From contig NZ_CP032683.1 in the NCBI RefSeq assembly GCF_001304615.2, positions 434,001 to 498,000 on the forward strand: a DNA stretch of 64,000 nt, given 5' to 3'. Each line of letters starts with the position of its first letter. Position 1 is the first letter of the stretch. Shown in pieces: positions 9,178 to 11,051 of the stretch. The notes beneath the pieces are model-generated. The model did no database searches. It saw only the letters and a program-made list of their open reading frames with translations, and had not been told where the DNA came from. The DNA is from Methanosarcina flavescens (GTDB lineage Archaea; Halobacteriota; Methanosarcinia; Methanosarcinales; Methanosarcinaceae). The position numbers and the translations under genes are program-made.

Positions 9178-9640
9178 ATCGAAAACGTCCTCAGAAAAAG
9201 TTTGATCAAAAATTAGCATGACTGCATGGTCAAGTGGCGCAATGGCTGATGATCAACCGGCGCAACGGTTTAAGCTCAATGGTTGCACTCAGGCGGATTG
9301 AATTATAATTCAACTAAGCCAAAAAATAGTCAAATTAGTATAATTTTTTCCATTCTTGTTTTTATCGATTTTCTACCCCTTTTATTAATTCCTTTTCTTT
9401 CTTGCTAATTTCTTTTTTATTCTTGCTAATTTTTTTAACAATTTCCTCGTCTTTTACTGCTTTCTGGAAGTTCTGATCTTCCAACTTAACATGTATTAAA
9501 GTTTTTCGTTTTGAGTTTGAAGTAAATATTTTATTGTTCGACTTTCCAAAAAAACATGAATTGTTGGAGAGATATATTGTTTCTTAAGTTTAATAATTCG
9601 AGATTAGATATTTTTTGTCAGGTTTTCGAATGATATCAGG
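9178..9640. other. Spacer with a duplicated tRNA-flank segment and a start-less lysine-rich frame
   Basis: At 9199-9255 a segment beginning GTTTGATCAAAAA and continuing to GCATGGTCAAGTGGCGCAAT resembles 10380-10445. On the minus strand an open frame of about 70 codons runs from about 9585 to about 9370, with no ATG, GTG or TTG start. It contains NSCFFGKSNNKIFTSNSKRK and ends in lysine-rich sequence, so it may be the relic of a gene. I see no intact gene. Confidence 0.4.
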
Positions 9641-9645
9641 TTCAA

Positions 9646-9734
9646 CGTTAACCAATGATCAGAATCAGAATTTAGAATAGTAACAGGCATAGATCTGGAA
9701 AATTAAATACGTTAACCAATTCATCGTTAACCAA
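9646..9734. promoter_or_regulatory. Three copies of CGTTAACCAA upstream of the SAMP operon
   Basis: Exact copies of the decamer start at 9646, 9710 and 9725; GTTAAC is itself palindromic. They end about 130 nt before the first start codon of the 42-aa/SAMP operon and could be operator sites. Confidence 0.5.
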
Positions 9735-9863
9735 AAAATTAATTAAAACATAAAATCATTATAGTTATTGGATATACATCTCTAGAAGACAGAGAGACAA
9801 GTCTGCTTGAAGAGATCTATACCAACTATGTTGCAAACCTGAAAAATCGTAGGAGATTTGAAA

Positions 9864-9992
9864 ATGGCAGGAAAGTTCCAGAAAAGAAATGCAGAAAGGA
9901 AAGGCATCAGAAAAGAATATGAACTGGAGCAGAAGTTAATAAAGAAAATCGTAAACGAAATTCAGGTAAGCGGCGGTGGATCTATAGAGTGA
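9864..9992 (+). CDS. Small basic protein (42 aa) translationally coupled to SAMP
   Basis: ATG at 9864 has a clear Shine-Dalgarno (AGGAG at 9851-9855, 8 nt upstream). The 42-codon frame begins MAGKFQKRNAERKGIRKEYE and ends in a glycine-rich SGGGSIE. The TGA overlaps the next start as GTGA, so the two proteins are almost certainly made together from one mRNA. The protein is highly charged and mostly helical, with no recognised family or cysteines. It could chaperone, tether or serve as a target of the ubiquitin-like product next door. That is inference from the coupling only. Confidence 0.75.
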   Translation: MAGKFQKRNAERKGIRKEYELEQKLIKKIVNEIQVSGGGSIE

Positions 9993-10201
9993 GTAAAAAA
10001 GTACACGTAACAATCCAGGCTGGAGAGATTTCTGAGCAGACCGTAGAAATAGCTGAGAGCGCTACCTACGAAGACCTGCTAAACACTTTGGACATAAATC
10101 AGGAAACGGTACTTGTATTAAACGGAGGGAATGCTGTCCCCCTAGATGGAGCAGTCAGTTCCGACAGACTCACAATCCTTAGAGTTGTCACAGGTGGCTG
10201 A
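9989..10201 (+). CDS. Small archaeal modifier protein / ThiS-MoaD-like beta-grasp protein
   Basis: This 70-aa ubiquitin-fold protein ends in the diglycine TGG needed for adenylation by an E1-like enzyme. It starts at GTG 9989 (MSKKVHVTIQAGE), which overlaps the upstream stop. Typical family features are the VTI/VEI strands, SATYEDLLNTLDI helix, NGGNAVPLDGAVSSDRLTIL and the C-terminal VVTGG. Such proteins act as sulfur carriers (2-thiouridine, molybdopterin or thiamin synthesis) or as protein modifiers (SAMP). The length and lack of a fused partner fit a SAMP2/Urm1-like member. The nearby DUF39 and thiC genes make a sulfur-carrier role plausible but do not decide it. Confidence 0.88.
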   Translation: MSKKVHVTIQAGEISEQTVEIAESATYEDLLNTLDINQETVLVLNGGNAVPLDGAVSSDRLTILRVVTGG

Positions 10202-10580
10202 CCTGCCAGCAAAAGGCACAGCCCTCCTTTATTACAATTCCTTTTTTCCACCTTTTTTGAGCTTATTATAAAGTTTTTATCACCAGGACATATTCTTATC
10301 AAGCCTTTTTCTTATCAACCTATTCTTATCAAGCCTTTTTCTTATAATCCTTTTCACAAACGCAAATTTTTCATAAGAATGTTTGATCAAAAACCATGTT
10401 TTAACTAAAACAGCATGGCCAAGCGGCACAAAGATTGATGATAAATGGGCTAAAAAGAACAGAAACTGTAGTAAGAATTGCAAAATTCGAAATACAATTA
10501 ATTTTTAATACGAGATTATTGAGTGTCCTGAGGGGAATTAAGGAGAGTAAAGAAATAGAAAGAAAAAATGATGAGAAGGT
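10202..10580. other. Spacer with oligo-T terminators and a 28-bp direct repeat
   Basis: T-runs at 10245-10260 (CCTTTTTTCC...CCTTTTTTGAG) probably end the SAMP transcript. TTCTTATCAAGCCTTTTT occurs at about 10291 and again about 30 bp on. The segment 10380-10445 is a diverged copy of 9199-9255. No gene is seen. Confidence 0.5.
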
Positions 10581-10652: not shown

Positions 10653-11051
10653 TTATTTTGAGGGAGTAAGAGGCACCTTTTTACTCATGACCTTCAGCTT
10701 CTTAATTGCTGAGATGGTTGCCTGAGATTCTTTATAAATTTTATCTTCGTAATAACTTATGATCTCGTCAACGGGAGCTGCAAGAGAATAAATCTTTATA
10801 GGGCGCCCTTTACCAGGTTTCTTTTCCGAACGAACGCTGACCCAAGACTGGTTGCGCATCAGCCTCATTGCAAGGCTTACTTCAGGTTGTCTTAGTCCGG
10901 TACTGATTTCGATTTCACGGGATGACGCCTCGTCAACATTCATAAGATATGCCATGGTCGTAGCGACATTTCTGGACATCCCGAGGTTCCTTAACGTTTC
11001 AATAAAAATGTGGTCGTTTTCGTCCAGCACTTTTACTTCATAGTCTTTCAT
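10653..11051 (-). CDS. mreA: TrmB/winged-helix regulator, probable MreA (methanogenesis regulator)
   Basis: This 132-aa DNA-binding protein has a winged helix at about residues 25-95: helix-turn-helix ASSREIEISTGLRQPEVSLA, then a basic wing SEKKPGKGRPIKIYSL, then a C-terminal helix likely used for dimerisation. In M. acetivorans, MreA (MA3302, TrmB family) globally controls acetoclastic versus methylotrophic gene expression. It lies five loci beyond cysteate synthase (MA3297) and comDE (MA3298), the same neighbourhood as here, which is my main reason for the name. The gene is flanked by large intergenic regions (0.45 and 1.4 kb) with several inverted repeats, in line with a regulated master gene. 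A related Methanosarcinales paralogue cannot be excluded. Confidence 0.8.
   Translation of the reverse strand: MKDYEVKVLDENDHIFIETLRNLGMSRNVATTMAYLMNVDEASSREIEISTGLRQPEVSLAMRLMRNQSWVSVRSEKKPGKGRPIKIYSLAAPVDEIISYYEDKIYKESQATISAIKKLKVMSKKVPLTPSK

Follow-up and report, generated by a model that had tools for sequence, protein, structure and literature searches.

A predicted helical 42-residue protein encoded in overlap with a SAMP2-type ubiquitin-like protein in Methanosarcina flavescens and related archaea

The window analyzed here is the whole 64,000-nucleotide stretch of the Methanosarcina flavescens genome between positions 434,001 and 498,000 of contig NZ_CP032683.1. It contains a pair of small overlapping genes with the following features:

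9646..9734, plus strand: three GTYAACC elements (at 9646, 9710 and 9725), followed by a promoter-like stretch rich in A+T
9851..9855, plus strand: AGGAG, the ribosome binding site of the 42-residue protein gene, read from the sequence, 8 nt before the ATG
9864..9992 (stop included), plus strand: gene of the 42-residue small protein, predicted to be a single helix (residues 3-36)
9975..9979, plus strand: GGTGG, a Shine-Dalgarno-like site for the ubiquitin-like protein (Ubl), inside the codons of the Gly-rich tail of the small protein
9989..10201, plus strand: SAMP2-type Ubl of 70 residues (Pfam PF21965) with the C-terminus VVTGG and a GTG start inside the upstream stop
10653..11051, minus strand: MreA-family regulator, convergent (NCBIfam NF053756, 154.1 bits, cut-off 100)

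The pair follows genes of tRNA-Val, tRNA-Phe and tRNA-Gly. Further upstream in the window lie the genes of cysteate synthase and sulfopyruvate decarboxylase, both of them coenzyme M genes, and of a full-length methanogenesis marker 16 protein.

The reading frame of the small protein runs from the ATG at 9864 to the TGA at 9990-9992. The AGGAG that the first-pass annotation had reported is present in front of it, and the alignment of Methanosarcina upstream regions keeps an AGGAG/GGAGA-type site at the same place. Pooled over 32 distinct Methanosarcina-type copies, the dN/dS ratio of the frame is 0.23, compared with 1.24 and 1.61 when this DNA is read in its two other frames and 0.15 for SAMP2 in the same analysis. 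The constraint is strongest in codons 1-14 (0.10), intermediate in codons 15-35 (0.25), and weakest in the tail (0.67 in codons 36-42). A ratio near one had been named beforehand as evidence against the frame, which has thus survived this comparison. Homologues are present in 99 of the 112 genomes of the same family and in 85 of its 86 high-quality genomes. As judged from its substitution pattern and conservation, the frame is a real gene under protein-level selection, as originally assumed.

The product is undescribed in the libraries that were searched: neither the single protein nor a 20-member family of it matched anything in Pfam, NCBIfam or the PDB sequences, where the best profile matches had E-values of 1.6 (profile A1) and 6.7 (profile A3). 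In a 29-member alignment, R8, K13, G14 and K17 are invariant, K24 and L25 are nearly so, and positions 21, 25, 26, 30 and 33 form a hydrophobic stripe. AlphaFold2 models a single helix comprising residues 3-36 with a mean pLDDT of 80. The small protein is therefore predicted to be one helix with a basic first half and an amphipathic second half, followed by a variable tail. Its earlier description as a basic protein is correct for the window copy (net charge of +4, pI of 9.8) but does not extend to the family, whose mean net charge is +0.4. The charge is segregated, with about +5.5 in the N-terminal part and -5.1 in the remainder.

The downstream frame starts with the GTG at 9989, its product ends in the residues TGG (last coding position 10198), and its stop codon occupies 10199-10201. 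Its identification as a SAMP/ThiS-like modifier was confirmed by Pfam PF21965 (SAMP2) with an E-value of 2.8e-18 and 66.5 bits, well above the gathering cut-off of 27. The NCBIfam SAMP2 equivalog model gave 61.1 bits, which is below its cut-off of 70, and we therefore call the protein SAMP2-type and not a formal equivalog. Its relatives in the PDB are SAMP2 (4hrs, 2l32) and TtuB (5ztb, 5gha). The host genome encodes a ThiF-family E1-like enzyme (G000:C1:2126082-2126762) and a TtuA/NcsA-type thiolase (PF22082, G000:C1:378704-378781). Among the genomes tested, some without SAMP2 included, a ThiF-type E1 was found in 35 of 36 and a TtuA-type N-terminal domain in all 26.

The C-terminal diglycine noted at first is present in the window copy, but it is not universal among the linked relatives, and several genera end otherwise. 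The linked Ubl terminates in SQG at 23 loci and in SSG, SAG, SKG or AGA at others; Ubls without GG occur at L024, L064, L075 and other loci of genus g11, at L104 and L112, at L070, and at L057 and L058. A second, unlinked Ubl that does end in GG is encoded in the Methanolobus-type genomes G065 and G044 and in genome G066 of genus g12. Some linked Ubls carry residues beyond the GG (SGGN at L132 and L136, SGGNFR at L143, SGGRLEVHTKIKN at L111). These resemble precursors that need processing, although they could also be simple shifts of the stop codon.

The two genes are joined by a GTGA at 9989-9992, in which the GTG of the Ubl lies inside the stop of the small gene, and the coupling proposed on this ground is both exact here and widely conserved. 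A SAMP2-like gene lies directly 3' of the small gene, on the same strand, at 122 of 135 distinct loci. The stop and start codons overlap by 4 nt in 68 of the 92 distinct pairs that were measured, with the Ubl starting at GTG in 34 of the 68, at TTG in 26 and at ATG in 8. A Shine-Dalgarno-like word is found at the tail position of 71 of 92 distinct loci, whereas a control stretch located 40 nt to its 5' side has one at 4 of 92. We also considered whether the tail of the small protein bears a Ubl-like GG and rejected this, because its Gly codons carry the ribosome-binding site of the Ubl and its dN/dS is 0.67.

At locus L117 (genome G116), the small protein and the Ubl form a single open frame of 104 residues with the SAMP2 domain at residues 40-101. 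This fusion is known from one locus in a single genome, where a misassembly might have produced it. Its model shows a helix at residues 3-31 followed by a domain predicted to have the beta-grasp fold, and with a pTM of 0.57 the packing of the two parts is not resolved. In a Foldseek search, the fused Ubl domain matched TtuB of the TtuA-TtuB complex best (5gha_F, E-value of 4.7e-05). The conservation of the operon and this one natural fusion hint at a possible physical contact between the small protein and the Ubl.

The three upstream repeats had been taken as a sign of regulated expression. The repeats themselves are borne out: the window contains exactly three copies of CGTTAACCAA, at 9646, 9710 and 9725, compared with 0.07 expected. 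The 31 upstream regions of Methanosarcina type all contain one to three copies of GTYAACC, where 0.015 per region is expected; in other genera, 3 of 79 upstream regions contain the element. In an alignment of 32 upstream regions, GTYAACC is located upstream of a conserved A+T-rich stretch. The tandem pattern occurs three times in the whole genome, and neither of the two other sites fronts an obvious pathway gene. This conservation supports a regulated expression of the pair in Methanosarcina.

By its homologues, the small protein reaches well beyond the genus. Absence of the frame beside the orthologous modifier in other Methanosarcina had been put forward as an argument against it, and the comparison found it conserved there. 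Profile A1, built from family members, has matches in 142 of 393 genomes spread over the phylum (127 of 321 high-quality ones), the weakest of which are probably due to chance, and the broader profile A3 brings in further genomes of family f8. When well-supported matches are counted, the small protein is present in about a dozen families of one archaeal phylum. Named records among the first loci belong to Methanosarcina species, Methanolobus and other Methanosarcinaceae, and further carriers would be Methanotrichaceae, Methanocella, Archaeoglobi and Methanoperedens-like groups. The profile searches found no small gene in genomes of family f9, in most haloarchaeal-type genomes and in families with weak SAMP2 matches, and none lies upstream of the 14 haloarchaeal-type, f9 and other SAMP2 genes that were checked. 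The candidate homologues at two presumably haloarchaeal loci (L134 and L135) matched profile A1 with E-values of 0.001-0.003, whereas profile A3 gave 0.025 in one and nothing in the other, and they do not adjoin SAMP2.

In three lineages (genus g10, family f20 and genus g25), 13 loci have the small gene without a linked SAMP2. Six g10 loci (L066, L079, L081, L087, L088 and L155), one in each of six genomes, retain an intact small gene, behind which the SAMP2 DNA is a broken pseudogene remnant (for example, LNILDIYQETLLI); two sister genomes in g10 retain SAMP2. Changes in codons 1-36 of these six small genes are mostly synonymous: of the variable codons listed, only 9, 30 and 34 alter the encoded residue. 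Codons 37-40, in contrast, vary. A search at E-values up to 10 gave no convincing SAMP2 in the six genomes, which retain E1, another Ubl of the ThiS/MoaD type and a TtuA-type protein. The four f20 genomes tested all have the TtuA domain, and two of them have E1 and another Ubl; neither E1 nor another Ubl was found in genome G134, and genome G186, for which the Ubl search alone applies, had no ThiS/MoaD match. As Methanococcus maripaludis makes direct use of sulfide, with no Ubls involved (PMC11323500), a loss of SAMP2 is plausible in sulfidic settings. Since the small protein is kept after the linked SAMP2 has been lost, it is not only the partner of SAMP2. The proposal of a "dedicated" target, adaptor or stabilizer of the modifier is thus not supported as worded, and the haloarchaeal and f9 SAMP2 genes that were checked lack the small gene.

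As a separate observation, genome G075 contains two extra SAMP2 copies (L182 and L183) without an intact small gene. The frame upstream of one of them reads IPVSGGDWVSKKVHV and is perhaps a leftover of the tail of the small gene.

The genes adjoining the pair differ by lineage. The MreA-family regulator is downstream of it at 19 of the 52 loci compared. A SufS-type cysteine desulfurase (TIGR01979, 409 bits, below the cut-off of 475) is located directly 3' of the pair at three Methanocella-like loci (L122, L123 and L127), and a MoaA homologue directly follows it in family f3 (L114 and L120, with the identity confirmed for L120). Dph2 precedes the pair at L106, L107 and L110, as does the EngB GTPase at four f8 loci. 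For each of these four neighbor types, one representative was typed. The neighbors suggest a link to sulfur relay and translation, although none is general or decisive. The ORFs around the pair in the window include no moa-like neighbor, which does not fit a MoaD of a molybdopterin operon. The remark that the pair stands outside such an operon therefore holds for the window but fails in f3, where the same pair precedes moaA.

Archaeal Ubls serve as sulfur carriers (PMC11323500) and are linked to tRNA modification (PMC2948915). The two-gene operon is well supported by its conserved gene order, and its function is what we infer. Our tentative preference, held with somewhat less than even confidence, is that the pair is an old operon of a short helical protein and a SAMP2/TtuB-type sulfur carrier, in which the former is a helper of sulfur relay or translation. 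This helper would be bipartite. Its basic half (K-F-x-K-R-x-x-E-R-K-G-x-K-K) would hold RNA, probably tRNA or rRNA, and its amphipathic half (L21, L25, I26, L/V30, L/I33) would dock on a protein partner. This partner would as a rule be the Ubl made alongside it or a client of that Ubl, either the TtuA/NcsA thiolase or the E1-like enzyme. After a loss of the linked SAMP2, the helper may continue to act for another Ubl or for the same thiolase; in the SAMP2-less lineages, E1, another Ubl and TtuA are retained by most of the genomes tested. Haloferax SAMP2 acts in tRNA thiolation, and as the haloarchaeal SAMP2 loci that were checked have no small gene, such a helper would not be generally required. 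A bolder form of this proposal, which we regard as unlikely, is that the helix is an undescribed cofactor of the archaeal Ubl sulfur relay that was present in the ancestor of the phylum, tethers the Ubl or the thiolase to RNA, and can persist once the Ubl is lost. The GG-less pairs would then be a non-conjugating complex.

The same data can be read differently. The small protein might be an independent RNA- or ribosome-associated protein whose co-expression with SAMP2 reflects only their shared role in translation, without any contact between the two. We consider this improbable: the invariant R8, K13, G14 and K17 in a basic N-terminal part, the EngB and Dph2 neighbors and the retention without SAMP2 all agree with it, but an overlap kept over distant families and a fusion exceed what loose co-expression needs, and the protein has no sequence match to any solved ribosomal chain in the PDB. 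For the latter reason we rejected a ribosomal protein by sequence; a comparison of folds would be uninformative for a single helix. Less probable again is a role confined to binding SAMP2 as its stabilizer, adaptor or preferred conjugation target. The close coupling at most loci, the 4-nt overlap and the natural fusion argue for such a partnership, which is at variance with the core sequence kept in the six g10 genomes after the decay of SAMP2, with the f20 and g25 loci that have no linked SAMP2, and with the further SAMP2 copies of G075. A toxin-antitoxin pair, which the layout of overlapping small genes brings to mind, is thought unlikely for a gene that is nearly always single-copy, nearly universal in its family and without a family match. 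Finally, if the frame served solely as a translated leader that sets SAMP2 expression, the overlap and the SAMP2 ribosome-binding site within the frame would be explained, but this reading is very improbable and was rejected given the protein-level selection, the amino acids conserved over families, the persistence without SAMP2 and the fusion.

The downstream Ubl resembles the known SAMP2/TtuB/ThiS-type carriers (Haloferax SAMP2, Thermus TtuB, Thermococcus Ubls) in the beta-grasp fold as predicted for its fused homologue at L117, its Pfam SAMP2 score above the cut-off, the GG of the window copy, and the presence of TtuA and E1 genes elsewhere in the host genome. Unlike in the present pair, no co-encoded helical protein was found described for the known genes, nor was any mention of the pair itself found, in a limited literature search. 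The Urm1 neighborhood of Sulfolobales (arCOG00540, S17, arCOG07188), as presented in PMC2948915, likewise has a Ubl gene by an uncharacterized small gene and translation genes, but it belongs to another lineage and Ubl group, and the resemblance is one of gene layout. The sections of that paper that were consulted do not mention the present pair. The paper does describe natural Ubl fusions (MoaD-MoaE and Ubl-Cgi121), in which, as at L117, a Ubl domain is joined to a functionally linked protein. However, the partner at L117 is a single helix of no known family, and the genes are separate at the other loci.

Archaeal Ubls connect sulfur transfer, tRNA modification and protein tagging, and few of their accessory proteins are known. 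A tiny protein that is found in many families and tied to SAMP2 by an overlap and one fusion is a concrete candidate for deletion in the genetically tractable Methanosarcina, and the lineages without a linked SAMP2 or with a GG-less linked Ubl are natural tests of the role of the pair.

Two minor observations concern the surroundings of the pair. About 1-1.8 kb upstream of it, L073 and L128 encode a protein that matches methanogenesis marker 16 over its N-terminal part and has CBS-like matches in its C-terminal part; a ferredoxin-like protein comes next. The pair in the window is flanked by stretches that appear similar by eye, at 9215-9300 (TTTGATCAAAAA...) and 10380-10450 (CATGGYCAAGYGGC...), and that look like degenerate repeats or tRNA remnants.
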